A stretch of DNA of 64,000 nucleotides. Origin: Streptomyces sp. Je 1-369. GTDB taxonomy: Bacteria > Actinomycetota > Actinomycetes > Streptomycetales > Streptomycetaceae. The notes below the pieces were generated by a model. It had not been told where the DNA came from. It was given only the letters and a program-made list of their open reading frames with translations, and searched no databases. The position numbers and the translations under genes were made by a program. Positions 53,900-63,391 of the stretch are shown here, piece after piece. The first letter of the stretch is position 1. The number at the start of each line of letters is the position of its first letter. The stretch lies in NCBI RefSeq assembly GCF_026810505.1, contig NZ_CP101750.1, positions 275,447 through 339,446 on the forward strand. The letters are read 5' to 3'.

Positions 53900-54199
53900 A
53901 TGGGAATGGTGACGTTCGTCGACGAGACGACATCGGGGGAGCGCCGGGGCGCCGGTGGGTTCGAGGTCGAGGAAGAGCGGCTTGCGCTGCGTGAGTTGAT
54001 CAGGCGGCGGGTGTTCCGTGAGGCGGGGGCGGAGGCGAATGGTGAGGGGCAGTTCGAGCGCGTCGTCGAGGCGTTCGGGCGTAATGGCCTTCTCGTGCTC
54101 GTGGGCGACCGTCAGGTGACGGACCTGGACGAGGACGTCGTCCTCGCCTCCGGCACGGAGGTCACGTTCCTCAAGCTCGTCCCGCTGGTGGGTGGCTGA
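53900..54199 (+). CDS. Small protein coupled to the DUF4132 gene
   Basis: A 99-residue acidic protein from the ATG at 53900. Visible blocks are GGFEVEEERLALRELIRRRV, FERVVEAFGRNGLLVLVGDR and VTDLDEDVVLASGTEVTFLK, ending LVPLVGG. The second half has the rhythm of a ubiquitin-like or ThiS/MoaD-like beta-grasp end (GRQVTDLDEDVVLASGTEVTF resembles a domain with a terminal Gly-Gly), and indeed the protein ends with Gly-Gly. Its stop overlaps the next start as TGATG, so the two are translated together. I cannot assign a function; a carrier or tag role is a guess based on the Gly-Gly end. Confidence 0.65.
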   Translation: MGMVTFVDETTSGERRGAGGFEVEEERLALRELIRRRVFREAGAEANGEGQFERVVEAFGRNGLLVLVGDRQVTDLDEDVVLASGTEVTFLKLVPLVGG

Positions 54200-56778
54200 T
54201 GACCGGGCCGACAGCGGACCTGACGTCCGCCACAGGAGACAACGCCGCGGCCGACCGGACGGCGACCGGGAGCCGTGCGCGGCACGTCACGGCCGTCGCG
54301 CGCCTCGCCGCCGCGGGTGACATGACGGAGCTCGCCGACGAGCTGCTCAGGGCTGCCGTTTCCAACGGCAACCGCTGGGACGGTGACGGCGACGAGATCT
54401 TCGTAACCCTGCGCGGCCTGCCCGCGGCCGACCGGACCCGGCTCGCGCACGCTCTGATGGAGGCGGCCGACCCGCCCACCGGACATCAGCCGATCACGAG
54501 CCTGCTCATACTTCTGGAGGTCATCGCCCACGACCTGCCGGGCGACCTGCTCTCCGCCGCACGGGTCGGACGCCTGGAGAAGCACGGCACGGTGCACTGC
54601 GTCTGGGCGGGGCGTGAAGCGATGGCGCTGGTCGACGCGGAACTGGCGGCGGGGCACCCTATTCCGGCGACGGCCGTCGCCGCTCTGCGCCGCACGGCCC
54701 GCCTCGACCAGTACGGCCAACCTGACCTCGCGGCCTTCCTGAAGAAGCTGCCCGACCCCGTGGTCAACCCGGGTGAGGCCTGGGCCGACCAAGCCCTCGC
54801 GGACCTCGCGAAGCGGGACGCCCCCTGGCACCAACTCGTGCGGCACACCGTGTCCGCCACGTCGGCCAAGCCCACCGCCCAATGGGACAAGACCGCCCGC
54901 GCGCTGCTCGGCCCGTTGGAAGTCGAGGAGGTCCGCGACACGCTCTTGGCCTGGCTCGCGCTGGTGGGTCGCCCCCGCACCCTGCCGTTCAACGGGTCGG
55001 TGTACGCCGTCGCGCCGAACGAGGAGTACGACCCGTACAACGCGGATGTGCTGCGCGGCTTGACCTGGCTGCTCGCCCTGCTGCCCGCGCACCCGGCGGC
55101 GGCCCGCGTGCTCGGCACGCTCGTCGAGGTGTCGCTGCGCAAGATCCCGGGCGTCGGTCCCCGCAACCCCAAGGTGGCCAACGCGGCCGTCGCCGCCCTG
55201 GTCCGCTCCGAAGGCGACGCGGCCCTGGCCGAACTGGCCCGACTTGCCTCCCGCGTCACGTACAAGACCACGCTCAAGATGATCAATACGGGCCTGGAGA
55301 AGCGCGCCGAGGCGCTCGGGTTGACCCGCGAGGAGGTCACCGAGCTCGCCGTGCCCTCGTACGGCCTGACGGAGGTCGGCCGCGCGGTCCACCGCATCGG
55401 CGACTGCGAGGCGGAGCTGACGGTCGACGGGCCGAGAGCCACGCTGCGGTGGCGCAACGCGGCAGGCAAGCAGGTCAAGGCGGCCCCCGCCGTCGTCCGA
55501 CGCGACCACTCCGACGAACTGAAGGAACTCAAGGCCGCCGTCAGGGACATCGACAAGATGCTCTCGGCGCAGGTGGAGCGGCTCGACCGGCAGTTCCTCG
55601 CCCGCCGCGAGTGGCGGTACGGCACGTGGCGCGAACGCTACGGTGACCATCCGCTGCTCGGCACCCTCACCCGCCGCCTGCTGTGGACCGTCGACGACAC
55701 ACCGTGCGGGTACGTGGACGGCGAGCTGCGCACCCTCACGGACGAACCGGTGCGGGCGGCGCCCGGGGCGGTGGTCCGGCTCTGGCACCCCGTGGGCCGG
55801 GAACCCGCCGAGATCGTCGCCTGGCGCGAGCGGCTGGAGCGGCACGGCATCACCCAGCCCTTCAAACAGGCGCACCGCGAGGTGTACGTGCTGACCGACG
55901 CCGAACGGACCACCCGCACGTACTCGAACCGGTTCGCCGCCCATTTCCTGCGCCAGCACCAGTTCAACTCCCTGGCCGCGGTGAGGGGCTGGCGCAACCA
56001 GTTGCGGCTGAGCGTGGACGACGAGTACCCGCCGGCCGTCAAGGAGCTGCCCGAGTGGGGGCTGCGCGCGGAGTACTGGATCGAGGGCGATGGCGGCGAG
56101 CGCTGGGACGAGGACCTCACCGAAGCGGGCAGCTACCTCCGCGTCCGCACCGACCAGGTCCGCTTCTACCCCATCGACGCCCCGCAGAACACGGCTCACG
56201 CGGGCGGCGGCGAGTACCGCATGAGGCTGCGCGACGGCCGCGCACCGGTCGAGCCGGTCCCGTTGGAGGAGATACCCGACCTGGTCCTGAGCGAAGTGCT
56301 GCGCGACGTCGACCTGTTCGTGGGCGTGGCCAGCGTCGGCGCCGACCCCACCTGGCAGGACGGTGGCCCCGGTGGCCGCTTCCGCGAGTACTGGACGTCG
56401 TACGGCTTCGGCGACCTCGGCCCGAGCGCCGTGACCCGGCGGGACCTGATCGCCCGGCTGCTGCCACGCCTCACGATCGGCGACCGGTGCTCGGTCGAGG
56501 GCCGTTTCCTGCACGTACGGGGCGACCTGCACACGTACAAGATCCATCTGGGCTCGGGGAACATCCTGCGCTCGCCGTCGGACCAGTACGTCTGTATCGT
56601 CCCGGCCTCTGCGTCCGGCGCCGGAGCCACGGCAGGCGAGGACTCGGGGGGCGGGTCCCTAGGGGGTGGCTATCTGCCCTTCGAAGGTGACCGCACGTTG
56701 TCGGTCATCCTCAGCAAAGCGATGCTGCTCGCCGCCGACGCGGAGATCACCGACCCCAGGATCCGCAGCCAGCTGTGA
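54199..56778 (+). CDS. DUF4132-domain protein (MolR-like)
   Basis: An 859-residue soluble protein. The first 350 residues are helical repeats of HEAT type (VARLAAAGDMTELADELLRA, LVRSEGDAALAELARLASRV). The DUF4132 region follows from about 400: RLDRQFLARREWRYGTWRER, HPLLGTLTRRLLWTVDD, VVRLWHPVGREPAEIVAWRE, RHGITQPFKQAHREVYVLTD, YSNRFAAHFLRQHQFNSLAA, then EYPPAVKELPEWGLRAEYWI and the end block RDLIARLLPRLTIGDRCSVE, YKIHLGSGNIL. E. coli MolR/YehI belong here; no reaction is firmly known. Start and stop overlap with the small upstream gene (TGATG). No transmembrane helix. Large size and intact frame show it is under selection. Confidence 0.85.
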   Translation: MTGPTADLTSATGDNAAADRTATGSRARHVTAVARLAAAGDMTELADELLRAAVSNGNRWDGDGDEIFVTLRGLPAADRTRLAHALMEAADPPTGHQPITSLLILLEVIAHDLPGDLLSAARVGRLEKHGTVHCVWAGREAMALVDAELAAGHPIPATAVAALRRTARLDQYGQPDLAAFLKKLPDPVVNPGEAWADQALADLAKRDAPWHQLVRHTVSATSAKPTAQWDKTARALLGPLEVEEVRDTLLAWLALVGRPRTLPFNGSVYAVAPNEEYDPYNADVLRGLTWLLALLPAHPAAARVLGTLVEVSLRKIPGVGPRNPKVANAAVAALVRSEGDAALAELARLASRVTYKTTLKMINTGLEKRAEALGLTREEVTELAVPSYGLTEVGRAVHRIGDCEAELTVDGPRATLRWRNAAGKQVKAAPAVVRRDHSDELKELKAAVRDIDKMLSAQVERLDRQFLARREWRYGTWRERYGDHPLLGTLTRRLLWTVDDTPCGYVDGELRTLTDEPVRAAPGAVVRLWHPVGREPAEIVAWRERLERHGITQPFKQAHREVYVLTDAERTTRTYSNRFAAHFLRQHQFNSLAAVRGWRNQLRLSVDDEYPPAVKELPEWGLRAEYWIEGDGGERWDEDLTEAGSYLRVRTDQVRFYPIDAPQNTAHAGGGEYRMRLRDGRAPVEPVPLEEIPDLVLSEVLRDVDLFVGVASVGADPTWQDGGPGGRFREYWTSYGFGDLGPSAVTRRDLIARLLPRLTIGDRCSVEGRFLHVRGDLHTYKIHLGSGNILRSPSDQYVCIVPASASGAGATAGEDSGGGSLGGGYLPFEGDRTLSVILSKAMLLAADAEITDPRIRSQL

Positions 56779-57398: not shown

Positions 57399-59477
57399 TT
57401 GACGTCAGACGAACCGGGCAATGACGAGGTCGGAAACCCCCCGAAGGCCGTGGCCTCGGACACCGTCTCGGACACCATCTCGGACGCGGAGCAGGAGCTG
57501 TACGGCGGTCGTCTGCGCTACGACCAGTCCTACGTCCGGCACGAACGCCCCCTGACCCGGCTGAAGTTCGGGCACATGGCCGCCGCGCTCCCCCGCATGG
57601 TGGGCATGGTGCTGCGCACCGGGTGGCAGACGGACCCGCGGGCGCTGGCCGGAGTCGTGACGGCGCAGCTCGGGCAGGGCGTCACGGCCGGCTGGGGGCT
57701 GGTCGCGGTCAACAGCGTCCTCACGCAGCTGTTCGCGGATGGTCCCACCGCGGACAAGCTGCGCGACGCTGTGCCGTCGCTGGTGGTGCTCGCGGTCGCG
57801 GCGGTGGCCACCGCGGTTCTGGCGGCCTGGTCGACGGCCATGTCCGGCCGTCTTGAGCCGCAGGTGGAGCGGGCGGTCTCCGCCCGGTACTACACGGCCG
57901 TCACCGGTGTGGAGGCGGAGGCGGCCGAACGGCCCGCGGTCCAGCGGATGTTGGAGGCGGGCAGGTTCGGCGTCGATTCGGCCCGCAGCATGCTGCGGCT
58001 GTCGGTCGGCGTGGGCAGTGTGGTGATCGGCATGGTCGCGGCCGCGGTCGTGCTGGCGGCGCTGCACTGGGCGCTGCTGCCGATGCTGCTGGCGATCGCC
58101 CTGCCCAAAGGATGGGGGGCGGTACGTTCCGCGCGCCGTGACTACCTCTCGCGGATGAACTGGATCGATCACCGCAGGGCGATCGCGTCGCTGCTCGCCT
58201 ACCTGACCCGCCCGCATGCCGCCGGGGAGATCCGCGTGCACGCCGCCGGTACGAAGCTGCTGTCCAGCTACGAGGAGATGTCGCGACAGACGGAGGCGGA
58301 GCAGCGGCGTCTGGCCCGGGCGCAGGCGTCCACTGACCTGGTCGCGGGGGCGTTCGCCGGTGTGGCGTCGCTGGCTTGTTACGGGGTGCTGTGGTGGCTG
58401 CTGGCGACCGGTGGTCTGCCGCTCGCCGTCGGGGGGACCGCGGTGATCGCCATCCGCACCTCGACAGCGCGGCTCACGTCGCTGGTGCAGCAGGTCAACC
58501 GTCTGTATGAGGAGTTGCTGTTCCTCACTGACACGGAGGACGCCATCAAGGTGGCAGGCGAGAATGCCATCCCGTCCTCCGGTACGCCGCTGCCCTCGCC
58601 CCTCTCGGAGGTACGGACGGAGGCGGTGTCGTTCACCTACCCGGGAGCCGAAGGACCTGCCCTGTCGGGTGTGAACGTGCGGGTCCCCCGGGGGAAGGTG
58701 ACCGCGCTGGTCGGTGCGAACGGCTCGGGGAAGACGACCTTGACGAAGGTACTGGCCGGTCTGCTGCTGCCCTCGGAAGGGAACGTGTGGTGGGCGGATG
58801 GGTCGGGCGAGCGGGTCGGGCTGCGGGAGGCGGACCGTGCTCAGGTCTTCGGCGCCGTCGGGCTTCTGACACAGGACTTCCCGCGCTGGGAGATGACGGC
58901 GGCCGCGAACGTGGCCATCGGTGCCGGGGACCGTGCCCGGGACATGGACGACGTCCGTGCGGCCGCTCAGGAGGCGGGCGTACTCGACCTGATCGAGGGC
59001 CTGCCGCACGGCTGGGACTCGATCGTGTTCAAGGGCTACGAACGCGGCGTCCAGCTCTCCGGCGGGCAGTGGCAGAAGCTCGGTACCGCGCGAACCCGGT
59101 ACCGGCGGGCCCCGTTCCTGCTGGTCGATGAGCCGACCAGCGCCCTCGACCCGCACGCGGAGATCGCCTCCTTCCAGGGCCTGTGGTCCCTGGCCGAGCA
59201 GGGGCACGCGGTCGTGCTCGTCACCCATCGGCTCGCCGCGACCATGAAGGCCGACCACATCTACGTCCTCGACCAGGGGCGCGTCGTCGAGGACGGTACG
59301 CACGAGGACCTGATGTCCCATGAGGGCGGTCTGTATCGGGGCATGTTCACCGCCCAGGCCGCCCAGTACGGACTCGCGCCCGCCTCCGCCACCACGATTC
59401 CCGGCGCCCGCGGCATCCAGCCGTCCGACCGCAAAACGGACGTCGGCTCAGATGCACTGCCTGGCGCTGGCGCGTAA
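57399..59477 (+). CDS. ABC exporter, fused permease and ATPase (type I half-transporter)
   Basis: About 692 residues from a TTG at 57399, chosen because GAGGGAG ends six bases before it; upstream codons lack coding character. A hydrophilic head of about 60 residues precedes six transmembrane helices (GVTAGWGLVAVNSVLTQLFA, VVLAVAAVATAVLAAWSTAM, SVVIGMVAAAVVLAALHWAL, GAFAGVASLACYGVLWWLLA and others). The ATPase follows with Walker A LVGANGSGKTTLTKVLAGLL, Q-loop GLLTQDFPRWEM, signature VQLSGGQWQKLGTAR, Walker B FLLVDEPTSALDPHAEIASF and switch LVTHRLAATMKADHIYVLDQ. It works as a homo- or heterodimer. The group includes exporters of peptides and small natural products. It precedes the mfnB-like gene by 268 bp on the same strand and may export that pathway's product. 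Confidence 0.87.
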   Translation: MTSDEPGNDEVGNPPKAVASDTVSDTISDAEQELYGGRLRYDQSYVRHERPLTRLKFGHMAAALPRMVGMVLRTGWQTDPRALAGVVTAQLGQGVTAGWGLVAVNSVLTQLFADGPTADKLRDAVPSLVVLAVAAVATAVLAAWSTAMSGRLEPQVERAVSARYYTAVTGVEAEAAERPAVQRMLEAGRFGVDSARSMLRLSVGVGSVVIGMVAAAVVLAALHWALLPMLLAIALPKGWGAVRSARRDYLSRMNWIDHRRAIASLLAYLTRPHAAGEIRVHAAGTKLLSSYEEMSRQTEAEQRRLARAQASTDLVAGAFAGVASLACYGVLWWLLATGGLPLAVGGTAVIAIRTSTARLTSLVQQVNRLYEELLFLTDTEDAIKVAGENAIPSSGTPLPSPLSEVRTEAVSFTYPGAEGPALSGVNVRVPRGKVTALVGANGSGKTTLTKVLAGLLLPSEGNVWWADGSGERVGLREADRAQVFGAVGLLTQDFPRWEMTAAANVAIGAGDRARDMDDVRAAAQEAGVLDLIEGLPHGWDSIVFKGYERGVQLSGGQWQKLGTARTRYRRAPFLLVDEPTSALDPHAEIASFQGLWSLAEQGHAVVLVTHRLAATMKADHIYVLDQGRVVEDGTHEDLMSHEGGLYRGMFTAQAAQYGLAPASATTIPGARGIQPSDRKTDVGSDALPGAGA

Positions 59478-59745
59478 CCCGCGGCGTCCGGCCGGGTCGG
59501 GCGTTGCCCGTGCGGCCAGATACTCCGGTGTGCACGGCGCACCGTAGGAAGTCTCGCGCTCCCAGTGGGCACTTTGTGCGCCTCCCCGTCTCCCAGGGCG
59601 ACGGGAATGATGAGCGGACCGCACACGAACCAGGCGACCCGCGGCCCCTGCCCTCGGCATACCCGACGTACCCGACGCACCCGGCCTACTCGGCGTCCTC
59701 GGTCGGCGAGCCGACGCGGCGGCAGGGCAGCGGAAGGAGGTCACG

Positions 59746-60501
59746 GTGTTACTTCTCGTCTCCCCGGACGGTGTCGAGGAAGCCCTCGAATGTACGAAGG
59801 CGGTGGAACATCTCGACATCGTCGACGTGAAGAAGCCCGACGAAGGCTCGCTCGGCGCGAACTTCCCCTGGGTCATCAGGGAGATCCGCGATGCGATTCC
59901 GGCGGAGAAGCCGGTGTCCGCGACCGTGGGGGATGTCCCGTACAAGCCCGGCACGGTGGCCCAGGCGGCGCTCGGCGCCGTCGTCTCGGGAGCCACGTAC
60001 ATCAAGGTCGGCCTCTATGGATGTACGACGCCCGCCCAGGGCATCGAGGTCATGCGCGCGGTCGTCCGGGCGGTGAAGGACCACCGTCCGGACGCGCTCG
60101 TCGTCGCCTCGGGCTACGCCGACGCCCACCGCATCGGCTGCGTCAATCCGCTCGCCCTGCCCGACATCGCTGCTCGCTCCGGCGCCGACGCGGCCATGCT
60201 TGACACCGCGGTCAAGGACGGGACGCGGTTGTTCGACCACGTTCCGCCGGACGTCTGCGCCGAGTTCGTCCGCCTTGCCCACGCGTCCGGGCTGCGCGCG
60301 GCCCTCGCGGGCAGTGTCGCACGGGCCGACCTCGGCCCCTTGACGCGCATCGGTACGGACATCGTGGGGGTGCGGGGCGCGGTCTGCGAGGGCGGTGACC
60401 GCAATGCAGGAAGGATTCGGCCGCATCTGGTGGCCGCCTTCCGGGCCGAGATGGACCGGTACGCGCGGGAGTGCGCCGCCGACGTTCCCTCCGCGCGCTG
60501 A
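59746..60501 (+). CDS. mfnB: (5-formylfuran-3-yl)methyl phosphate synthase, MfnB-like
   Basis: A 251-residue TIM-barrel enzyme from the GTG at 59746 with AAGGAGGT before it. In methanogens MfnB joins two glyceraldehyde-3-phosphate molecules to 4-(hydroxymethyl)-2-furancarboxaldehyde phosphate, the furan precursor of methanofuran. The blocks are strikingly like the archaeal enzyme: [66 protein letters not shown] and [21 protein letters not shown]29, K87, D153 and K157 match, with a constant offset of two, the lysines and aspartate (K27, K85, D151, K155) I recall as catalytic in the Methanocaldococcus enzyme. Actinobacteria make no methanofuran, so a different furan product is implied. An aryl-alcohol-type dehydrogenase and a methyltransferase follow. 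Confidence 0.9.
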
Positions 60502-60634
60502 TCGCCCGCGAGGGCAGCCGTGCCTGGGGCGGGGACCGGCCCGCCCGCGGGGGCTGTGCCGCGACTTCGGCTTTCGGCGTCCACCCGTCTCGCTCCCTCC
60601 CTCCCCCCGTCCACCAACCCCAGGAGGCGTGCCA

Positions 60635-61753
60635 GTGCAGTTCCAGGCGGCCGTACTGCGCTCGTACGAGGGCCCGTTCACGGTCGAGGAGGTGCTTCTG
60701 CGGACCGAGCCCGCCGAGGGCGAGATCCTGGTCGAGATCGCGGGCACCGGGATGTGCGGGACCGATCTCGCGGTACGTAACTCCGGTGGGCGAAGCCCTC
60801 TGCCTGCCGTCCTCGGCCACGAGGGCGCCGGCGTCGTCGTACGGGCGGCGGCAGCGGCAGCGGGTGGTCCGGATGGCGCGATCGGCGTGGGTGACCACGT
60901 CGTGCTGAGCTTCGACTCCTGCGGACACTGTCCGAACTGTCGCGCCGCCGCCCCCGCCTACTGTGACTCCTTCGCCTCCCTCAACCTCTTCGGCGGGCGC
61001 GAGGAGCATCCGCCGCGGCTCACCGACGCGACCGGCGAGGCGCTGGCTCCCCGGTGGTTCGGGCAGTCCTCGTTCGCGGCGTACGCACTCGTTCCGGCCC
61101 GCAACGCCGTACGGGTCGACCCCGCACTGCCGCTCGAACTGCTCGGGCCGCTCGGCTGCGGTTTCCTCACCGGCGCCGGAGCCGTGCTGAACACCTTCGC
61201 CGCGGGGCCCGGCGACACGCTCGTGGTCTTCGGCGCGGGGGCCGTCGGCCTGGCCGCGGTGCTGGCGGCCACGGCTGCCGGCGTACTGACCCTCGCCGTC
61301 GACCGGTACCCCGAACGGCTCACCCTGGCCGAGCGGTTCGGCGCCACACCGCTGCACGCCGCCTCCCCCGACCTGCCCGCACGCATACGCCGCCTGACCG
61401 ACGGCGGGGCGCGGTACGCACTGGACACCACGGCGGCGCCACCGCTCATCAACCACGCGCTCAACGCGCTACGTCCCACGGGCACCCTCGGCCTGGTGGC
61501 ACGCCTCCACACCCCGCTGTCTCTCGAACCCGGGACGCTCGACCGGGGCCGCGGCATCCGCCACATCTGCGAGGGGGACGCCGTGCCCGGCGTGCTGATC
61601 CCGCGGCTGATCGCGCTGTGGCAGGCCGGGCGCTTCCCTTTCGACCAGCTGATCCGCACCTACCCGCTGGCCGGCATCAACGAAGCCGAACACGACTGCC
61701 GAGCGGGCCGTGTGGTCAAACCCGTTCTGCTCCCGGAGAGGACCAGCCGATGA
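60635..61753 (+). CDS. Zinc-dependent alcohol dehydrogenase, aryl-alcohol (benzyl alcohol) type
   Basis: A 372-residue medium-chain dehydrogenase from the GTG at 60635, which has AGGAGG seven bases upstream. Catalytic zinc ligands: Cys in GTGMCGTDLAVRN, His in LGHEGAGVVV, Cys in LGPLGCGFLTGAGAVLN. Structural zinc: four Cys in SCGHCPNCRAAAPAYCDSF. NAD site: VVFGAGAVGLAAVLAATAAG followed by LAVDRYPERL (Asp prefers NAD). LGPLGCGFLTGAGAVLN is typical of benzyl- and aryl-alcohol dehydrogenases such as XylB/AreB. A furfuryl-type alcohol or aldehyde, the dephosphorylated MfnB product, would be a chemically fitting substrate. It ends with an ATGA overlap with the methyltransferase gene, so both are translated together. 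Confidence 0.88.
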   Translation: MQFQAAVLRSYEGPFTVEEVLLRTEPAEGEILVEIAGTGMCGTDLAVRNSGGRSPLPAVLGHEGAGVVVRAAAAAAGGPDGAIGVGDHVVLSFDSCGHCPNCRAAAPAYCDSFASLNLFGGREEHPPRLTDATGEALAPRWFGQSSFAAYALVPARNAVRVDPALPLELLGPLGCGFLTGAGAVLNTFAAGPGDTLVVFGAGAVGLAAVLAATAAGVLTLAVDRYPERLTLAERFGATPLHAASPDLPARIRRLTDGGARYALDTTAAPPLINHALNALRPTGTLGLVARLHTPLSLEPGTLDRGRGIRHICEGDAVPGVLIPRLIALWQAGRFPFDQLIRTYPLAGINEAEHDCRAGRVVKPVLLPERTSR

Positions 61754-62694
61754 GCGATCACACCACGCCCGCCGACGGAGGCACCATGGCCGAAACGACG
61801 CCGCAGCACGCGGACGTGGACGGCGTCGACGGGGGCGTGGGCCTCACCGCCCTCCTGGTCGCCGCGGCACGGGCGATCGAGACCCGCCGACCCGACAGTC
61901 TGGCCCAGGACGCCTACGCGGAACACTTCGTACGCGCCGCCCCCGCCTGCGCCCATTGGCCGGTGCGCATCGAACAGGTCCCGGAGGGCGACGACAACCC
62001 TCTGTGGGGGCGGTTCGCCCGCTACTTCGGTCTGCGGACGAGAACACTTGACGACTTCCTCCTCCGGGAGGTCGTCGGCACGGGTACGCGTCAAGTGGTG
62101 CTGCTGGGCGCCGGGTTGGACACCCGTGCCTTCCGGCTGGATCTGCCGTCCGACTGCGTCGTCCACGAGATCGACAGGGCGGGCGTGCTGGACTTCAAGC
62201 AACAGGTGCTCACGAGCCTGTCGGCCGTCCCGAGGGTGAAGCGCGTCCCCGTACCCGTCGATCTGCGCGCGGACTGGGTCGGCGCGCTGGCCGCTGCCGG
62301 CTTCGACCCTGCCGCGCCGAGCGTCTGGCTGGCCGAGGGGCTCCTCTTCTACCTGCCGGGCCCTGTCGAGACGTACCTCATCGACATGGTGGATCGGCTC
62401 ACCACCGGAGGCAGTGCGCTGGCCTTCGAGGTCAAGCTCGAGAAGGATCTGCTGGCGTACCGCGACAGCCCGATCTATACGGCGACGCGCGAGCAGATCG
62501 GCATCGATCTGCTCCACCTCTTCGACCAGGGGCCCCGACCCGGCTCCGCGGGCGACCTGACGGCCAAGGGATGGTCGGCCTCGGTGCACACGCCGTTCGA
62601 CTTCACCCGGCGGCACGGGCGTGGTCCCCTCCCCGAGTCCAACGACGCGCTGGAGGGGAACCGTTGGGTCTTCGCGCACAAGCCGCGGCCTTGA
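61750..62694 (+). CDS. SAM-dependent methyltransferase, TIGR00027/LCMT-like family
   Basis: A 314-residue enzyme from the ATG at 61750, overlapping the dehydrogenase stop. N-terminal helix block VGLTALLVAAARAIETRRPD (typical TIGR00027), SAM site QVVLLGAGLDTRAFRLDLPS, acidic end of strand 2 VVHEIDRAGVLDFKQQVLTS, then VPVDLRADWVGAL, VWLAEGLLFYLPGP and the C-terminal GRGPLPESNDALEGNRWVFA. This group contains O-methyltransferases of polyketide and other natural product pathways and shares its fold with leucine carboxyl methyltransferases. In context it may methylate a hydroxyl or carboxyl group on the furan. The frame is intact; no membrane part. Confidence 0.87.
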   Translation: MSDHTTPADGGTMAETTPQHADVDGVDGGVGLTALLVAAARAIETRRPDSLAQDAYAEHFVRAAPACAHWPVRIEQVPEGDDNPLWGRFARYFGLRTRTLDDFLLREVVGTGTRQVVLLGAGLDTRAFRLDLPSDCVVHEIDRAGVLDFKQQVLTSLSAVPRVKRVPVPVDLRADWVGALAAAGFDPAAPSVWLAEGLLFYLPGPVETYLIDMVDRLTTGGSALAFEVKLEKDLLAYRDSPIYTATREQIGIDLLHLFDQGPRPGSAGDLTAKGWSASVHTPFDFTRRHGRGPLPESNDALEGNRWVFAHKPRP

Positions 62695-62771: not shown

Positions 62772-63308
62772 TCAGGCGACGGCTCGGGGGGCCACCAGCT
62801 CGTCGCCGGGGATTCCCGCCATGTCCGGCGCGTAATAGTCCACGATGCCGGTGTCCCACGCGGACACGGCGATGCGGTCCTCGGTGTCCGGGCCGAAGGC
62901 GTCGAAGAGGGCGTGGATGTTCGCCTCCTCGAAGCCGATCGCCGTCATCAGTGCGATGAAGAGGGGGCGCTCGATCAGGCCGTCCCCGTCGGGGTCGCCG
63001 AGCGCGGAGAGGGCTGCGGCGAACTCGGCGATCGTGGGTCCGAAACGCTTGGGGTCGAGTACGAACGGCCGGAACTCGTCCATCGTGATCACGCCGTCGC
63101 CGTTGGCGTCCAGCTCAGTGGCCAGCGTCGTCCAGTAGCGGCGGAACGCGGCCCGGATGGCGGCCTTGGCACCGTCGTCCGACGCGGTCGCCGCTTCCAG
63201 GACCCGGCCCGTCATCAGGTCGAAGTCGGCGGAGTCGATGACTCCGTTGCCGTTGACGTCGAAGAGGGAGAAGACCAGCTCGACCCTCTTGGCGGCTTCG
63301 GTTCGCAT
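62772..63308 (-). CDS. EF-hand calcium-binding protein (calerythrin-like)
   Basis: A 178-residue protein from the ATG at 63308 with ACAGGTGATGCAC upstream. Four EF-hands are arranged as in calerythrin and Streptomyces CabD: loop 1 DVNGNGVIDSAD, loop 2 DANGDGVITMDE, loop 3 DPDGDGLIERPL and a degenerate loop 4 (DAFGPDTEDRIA). Loops 1 and 2 have Asp at positions 1, 3 and 5; position 12 is Asp (loop 1) and Glu (loop 2). Loop 3 lacks an acid at position 12, so it may bind weakly. No export signal; an intracellular calcium buffer or sensor. It lies 77 bp from the end of the methyltransferase gene, convergent to it. Confidence 0.88.
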   Translation of the reverse strand: MRTEAAKRVELVFSLFDVNGNGVIDSADFDLMTGRVLEAATASDDGAKAAIRAAFRRYWTTLATELDANGDGVITMDEFRPFVLDPKRFGPTIAEFAAALSALGDPDGDGLIERPLFIALMTAIGFEEANIHALFDAFGPDTEDRIAVSAWDTGIVDYYAPDMAGIPGDELVAPRAVA

Positions 63309-63391
63309 GTGCATCACCTGTCTTTTGTGACCCGCCGATCGCGGGCCCGACCCCATGGACGCAGCTACCCGACCCGGCGCGTGCAGCTGTT

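Follow-up and report, generated by a model that had tools for sequence, protein, structure and literature searches.

The stretch analyzed here, referred to as the window, comprises 64,000 nucleotides (275-339 kb) of the 8.82-Mb single-contig genome of Streptomyces sp. Je 1-369 (genome G000). It carries a gene, mfnB, whose product is related to the enzyme that forms the furan ring in archaeal methanofuran biosynthesis. Downstream of mfnB on the same strand lie genes for a zinc-containing alcohol dehydrogenase (ADH) and an S-adenosylmethionine (SAM)-dependent methyltransferase (MT); most relatives have, in addition, a gene for an aldehyde dehydrogenase (ALDH) between mfnB and the ADH gene. The features of the locus, in window positions, are as follows.

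57399(TTG)-59477, + strand: ATP-binding cassette (ABC) exporter, an MsbA-like half transporter (ABC_tran); a neighbor outside the cassette
59607-59623, + strand: conserved leader motif ATGATGAGCNNACCGCA upstream of mfnB, a probable regulatory site
59746-60501, + strand: mfnB (PF04476 [4HFCP_synth], NF002573; structure match to MJ1099, 4rc1)
60502-60634, + strand: site of ALDH loss, 133 bp here versus an ALDH gene of about 1.4 kb in most relatives
60635-61753, + strand: zinc ADH, benzyl-alcohol-dehydrogenase-like, 372 aa (PF08240 [ADH_N] and PF00107 [ADH_zinc_N])
61750-62694, + strand: SAM-dependent MT of the leucine carboxyl methyltransferase (LCM)/TIGR00027 family, 314 aa (PF04072, TIGR00027)
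62772-63314 (start alternatively 63308), - strand: EF-hand calcium-binding protein, loosely associated (EF-hand Pfam matches)

The initial annotation had described four intact plus-strand genes (exporter, mfnB, ADH, and MT), and a family match was obtained for each of them. The ribosome sites it had noted were present in the sequence, with GGAAGGAGG preceding mfnB and AGGAGG preceding the ADH gene, and the ADH and MT genes did share an ATGA overlap at 61750-61753. Pfam searches found no aminotransferase or phosphatase among the four gene products, no genome search having been aimed at MfnC. As for the operon that had been proposed, the mfnB-ADH-MT block proved to be conserved; the exporter did not belong to it, and the usual ALDH gene and the downstream EF-hand gene had been overlooked.

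The window MfnB matched the PF04476 profile with an E value of 6.4e-78 (262 bits; cut-off, 22.4) and scored 389.7 bits against the NCBIfam equivalog model NF002573, passing its cut-off of 341. The sole solved relative at E values of up to 1 was MJ1099 (4rc1/4u9p; E value of 1.2e-80), and 136 of 229 aligned residues (59.4%) were identical to M. jannaschii MfnB. Residues D25, K85, and D151 of the archaeal enzyme are presumably catalytic. In the excerpts available of the respective papers, K27 (PMC6604932) and K155 and R217 (PMC11365854) are named as catalytic. The initial annotation had remarked on a constant offset of two, which was found at D25, K27, K85, D151, and K155, corresponding to D27, K29, K87, D153, and K157 of the window protein. 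These five residues and R219 were retained in at least 99% of 147 of the loci described below. An argument from the phenylalanine at M. jannaschii position 163 was dropped because, according to the excerpt of PMC11365854, the active MfnB_MM also has histidine there.

The neighborhood of mfnB was compared across loci from several sources: the window itself, 19 found in the first search, 3 on plasmids, 60 out of 86 further matches from the genus, one additional locus of the genus (L145), and, among 261 named loci, the 80 best. After exclusion of L120 and L121, which had no full MfnB, and merging of loci that shared identical mfnB DNA, 149 distinct loci remained, all selected by the presence of full-length MfnB. 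The co-conservation on which the initial annotation had staked its case was found: ADH was present in all 149 loci and MT in 147, so that mfnB, ADH, and MT occurred together in 147, and a full ALDH gene lay between mfnB and ADH in 139. The two loci without MT were L188, where the DNA stops 3.3 kb past the mfnB start, and L207, where none was found in the available DNA. Uninterrupted matches covering at least 85% were obtained for MfnB in 149 loci, for ADH in 146, and for MT in 143. MT was inverted in 12 loci, and in L081 and L128 it followed ADH at a distance of over 500 bases. Independent clustering of the genes called within 9 kb returned five families, in 147, 146, 143, 137, and 70 loci, the next family reaching only 8; a larger gene cluster was therefore rejected, there being no further conserved neighbor within that distance. 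More distant partners were less well tested, because fewer than 9 kb of downstream DNA were available in 78 of the 149 loci.

A reverse search gave a similar picture. The ADH query at an E value of 1e-90 matched 40 of 150 genomes of the genus; in 39 of these the ADH was at least 76% identical (partial in G158), and all 39 also had a full PF04476 match. The fortieth, G118, had an ADH of 49% identity and was not among the PF04476 matches. The protein distances of the three genes were correlated (r of 0.75 to 0.82; at most 0.11 in shuffles), which shows co-inheritance, not function. The mfnB-ADH-MT block is thus real and conserved, with a membership that differs from the one first listed. No description of the cassette was found among the open-licence papers searched.

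The closest solved relatives of the ADH were 5tnx and the benzyl alcohol dehydrogenase 1f8f (E value of 1.3e-77). Residues C41, H62, and C175 and residues C96, C99, C102, and C110, which we take to be zinc ligands, were conserved in 99% or more of 147 loci. Assignment of the cassette ADH as an aryl-alcohol-type dehydrogenase, as originally suggested, is therefore supported by its sequence. The ALDH of the cassette was a general PF00171 enzyme that fell under the cut-off of every listed NCBIfam model (25 of 41 matched). XylB and XylC are paired aryl alcohol and aldehyde dehydrogenases, and the cassette resembles them in having an ADH near 1f8f that is usually paired with an ALDH; it differs in that its dehydrogenases are linked to a furan synthase and an MT. 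The MT matched PF04072 (E value of 4e-50) and TIGR00027 (E value of 1.6e-70). Its predicted model (mean predicted local distance difference test score of 83; predicted template modeling score of 0.85) matched the mycobacterial proteins ML2640 and Rv0731c, followed by LCMT1, TYW4, and PPM1, indicating an LCMT-type fold. LCMT1, TYW4, and PPM1 act on carboxylates. TcmP is presumably also a member of the LCM family. According to the excerpt available of PMC7247197, TcmP methylates the C9 carboxyl.

Alignment of 141 loci showed a conserved leader, about 130 bp long, ahead of mfnB; 7 loci with the EF-hand gene directly upstream were omitted from the alignment. The 17-base motif ATGATGAGCNNACCGCA had a single exact occurrence in the 8.82-Mb genome, before mfnB (G000:C1:335053-335069); with 2 mismatches it occurred at 10 further genomic places, and the reversed-pattern control occurred at 7. 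The sequence AATGATGAGC was present in 75 of 147 leaders, compared with a mean of 0.0 over 5 mononucleotide shuffles. Positions 59571-59745 and the related leaders formed a long conserved noncoding stretch with repeated CCGCAC-like blocks; in the window, the first part of the leader was retained and a different sequence stood ahead of the ribosome site. Rfam searches of the leaders of the window, L118, and L083 gave no family at or above its gathering score. In 131 leaders (135 diverse leaders less the window, L116, L119, and L207), most of the strongest covarying column pairs were noncomplementary. A structured leader RNA was thus unsupported, and with no RNA fold supported by covariation, the leader was treated as a promoter or operator region; it is probably a DNA regulatory region. 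A leader peptide from ATGATGAGC was also rejected, as the third codon positions were not the variable ones when the consensus was judged by eye. In the excerpt available of PMC7581861, the S. coelicolor gene SCO6440, named mfnB, is reported as upregulated in an abrB mutant by RNA sequencing (RNA-Seq), with the note that fold changes of upregulated genes from reverse transcription-quantitative PCR differed more from those of RNA-Seq.

The window is one of ten loci without a full ALDH gene, the others being L028, L097, L114, L117, L153, L166, L195, L197, and L210. No recognizable remnant was left in the window or L028. Shortened ALDH stretches were found in L097, L114, L153, L166, L197, and L210, with both gene ends present in four of them, and pieces visible only by eye in translations were found in L117 and L195. 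Several of the remnants were still open through, with mfnB whole beside them. On a tree of 147 loci, the loss required 9 changes, compared with 8 to 10 for shuffled labels (branch support for L028, 0.53), and the losses therefore look largely independent. Between each of the ten loci and its nearest intact locus, the ratios of nonsynonymous to synonymous substitution rates (dN/dS) for MfnB, ADH, and MT were 0.06 to 0.31, within the range of intact pairs (medians of 0.105, 0.223, and 0.238 and maxima of 0.236, 0.452, and 0.354, respectively, with 38 or 39 pairs each); for the window against L039 they were 0.098, 0.163, and 0.181. These values indicate that ADH and MT are still constrained after ALDH loss, as support rather than proof, because pairwise values average the periods before and after the loss and because the ADH of L210 is itself split in two. 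Relocation of the ALDH within G000 was rejected, the best of 23 matches being 50% identical. At an E value of 1e-90, no ALDH was found in G132, G059, G135, and G333, four of the five ALDH-less genomes searched; in the same search, four ALDH-intact genomes matched at 85 to 100%. Given these absences and no close substitute, the ALDH step would be one that can be taken over by other enzymes or dispensed with.

The EF-hand gene (62772-63314) was near mfnB in 74 of the 149 loci, in four different arrangements. Among 6 genomes searched, 4 had one close copy beside mfnB, one had a 34% match elsewhere, and one had none; the gene is thus loosely a member of the cassette. Control by the same leader motif was rejected, since GATGAG was upstream of only 3 of the 74 EF-hand genes. 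Farther upstream in the window, beyond the exporter, a large DUF4132/DUF7737 protein (54199-56778) was not conserved with the cassette.

PF04476 matches were found in 20 of 100 genomes; of these, 13 were among the 61 genomes of the window's genus, counting the window's own, and the remaining 7 belonged to a single other genus within the order. In a larger sample of 392 genomes of the genus there were 99 matches, or 96 full ones after removal of three weak partials (G119, G147, and G267); a phylum-wide draw of 396 genomes gave 6, of which one scored under the cut-off for the family. The partial proteins at L120 (G147) and L121 (G119), with E values of 6e-8 and 6e-7, had no cassette and are possibly another aldolase-type protein. 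A plasmid collection contained 45 matching records. Thirteen were from Streptomyces or Streptantibioticus, at 84 to 90% identity, and the seven non-actinobacterial records listed (25 more matched) were 31 to 36% identical to the window MfnB. Two annotated plasmids carried consecutive genes for MfnB, aldehyde dehydrogenase, alcohol dehydrogenase, methyltransferase, and EF-hand protein; in a third, the EF-hand gene was upstream. A homologue search from the MfnB alignment returned 5586 proteins, and the organism-named ones among the 120 listed were from Streptomyces, Kitasatospora, or Actinacidiphila.

On balance we favor the interpretation that mfnB, usually ALDH, ADH, MT, and often the EF-hand gene form a dedicated cassette in which the furan-ring synthase of methanofuran biosynthesis has been repurposed to make a small furan. 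Together, the MfnB residues, the ADH and ALDH families, and the MT fold suggest that the product is most likely a small oxidized, O-methylated 2,4-disubstituted furan. From knowledge of the family, MfnB would convert two glyceraldehyde-3-phosphates to 4-(phosphooxymethyl)furfural, from which a general cellular phosphatase would release the hydroxymethyl group. Oxidation of the side groups to the aldehyde or acid would fall to the ADH, of the benzyl alcohol type, together with the ALDH (or another cellular ALDH where that gene has been lost), and the LCM-family MT would esterify a carboxylate. We infer that such a product may be a secreted or volatile specialized metabolite and not a coenzyme. 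A small furan of S. coelicolor described in the excerpt available of PMC6604932 resembles the proposed product: it derives from a triose phosphate and bears a carboxylate as well as a 4-hydroxymethyl group.

Several observations weigh against this interpretation. ADH was broken or interrupted in L119, L128, and L210, and MT was interrupted or short in L087, L122, L138, and L150; these breaks may reflect decay, late stops, or sequencing errors. The neighborhood clustering found no phosphatase, transporter, or regulator conserved alongside the cassette in the 149 loci, and the nearest solved relatives of the MT, ML2640 and Rv0731c, are labeled putative and have no assigned substrate. A requirement of MT for an acid made by ALDH is not easily reconciled with the 10 of 149 loci in which ALDH has been lost but MT is still constrained. 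With no ALDH at an E value of 1e-90 in four of the five ALDH-less genomes searched, one has to suppose that less similar ALDHs step in or that the substrate of MT differs.

These last points are the strength of a possible, if doubtful, alternative in which the core is MfnB, ADH, and MT only: the ADH would reduce the furfural to a furan dimethanol, the MT would make a methyl ether, and the ALDH would divert or detoxify surplus furfural. Repeated ALDH loss (10 loci, 9 tree changes), the constraint on ADH and MT seen in the pairwise dN/dS, and the four genomes without a close ALDH count in its favor. The full ALDH kept in 139 of 149 loci argues that the enzyme is usually useful, and the LCM-type methyltransferases of known substrate (LCMT1, PPM1, and the TcmP reaction cited above) act on carboxylates.

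That MfnB makes a different aldol product here, a nonfuran sugar phosphate processed by the dehydrogenases and MT, is unlikely. Aldolases of the MfnB fold can change product, and we know of no cassette-group enzyme that has been assayed; against this stand the sequence identity with M. jannaschii MfnB (59%), the near invariance of the catalytic residues (at least 99% in 147 loci), and the NCBIfam equivalog cut-off that was passed.

It is very improbable that the cassette makes a furan coenzyme of one-carbon metabolism, methanofuran-like or otherwise. Methylofuran clusters with an MfnB homologue are described in the excerpt available of PMC8141765, and a Burkholderiaceae region with one in that of PMC9088363. 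Two distant actinobacteria (L143 in G695 and L144 in G470) had MfnB outside the cassette together with formylmethanofuran formyltransferase (FTR); these MfnB proteins were 51 to 53% identical to MJ1099, compared with 59 to 61% for the three cassette enzymes measured. In L143, mfnB adjoined formylmethanofuran dehydrogenase-type genes, as judged from translations, with FTR among such genes on the same contig, an apparent true methanofuran pathway within the phylum. With these two genomes as positive controls, FTR was missing from all 13 cassette genomes tested, in line with the original proposal that the product is not a one-carbon cofactor precursor. The cassette had no further conserved neighbor, MfnC, MfnD, MfnE, and MfnF not having been searched beyond the neighborhood. 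It thus shares with archaeal methanofuran biosynthesis the furan-forming enzyme and its catalytic residues and differs in having an ALDH, an ADH, and a carboxyl-type MT and in lacking FTR in those 13 genomes. The methylofuran pathway of Methylorubrum is likewise bacterial, with Orf22 as its MfnB homologue according to the excerpt of PMC8141765; according to a published abstract, methylofuran serves formaldehyde oxidation, unlike the role proposed for the cassette.

Least credible is the five-kilobase operon including the ABC exporter, which lies upstream on the same strand as mfnB: the exporter was missing from 147 of the 149 loci, which refutes it as a conserved unit, the cassette's own conserved leader sits between it and mfnB, and its presence in only two loci (the window and L033, where a 71% identical protein is encoded about 6 to 8 kb off on the opposite strand) makes it a bystander.

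The dedicated furan cassette can be extended to a bolder proposal, which we regard as unlikely in its entirety. The pathway, present in about a quarter of Streptomyces species, would be compact and self-contained and governed by a conserved control region of its own. Its product would belong to a class of small furan signals or volatiles not yet described, its archaeal-type synthase would have been taken from coenzyme biosynthesis, and repeated ALDH loss would switch lineages between acid or ester and aldehyde or alcohol forms. An enzyme known from the synthesis of a methanogen and methylotroph coenzyme has full matches in 96 of the 392 sampled genomes of the genus, within a conserved cassette. 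The repeated loss of ALDH supplies natural variants for ordering the pathway. If a new furan is made, this metabolite class would be reachable by removal of a single gene, for example in S. coelicolor, where SCO6440 is transcribed according to the excerpt of PMC7581861.

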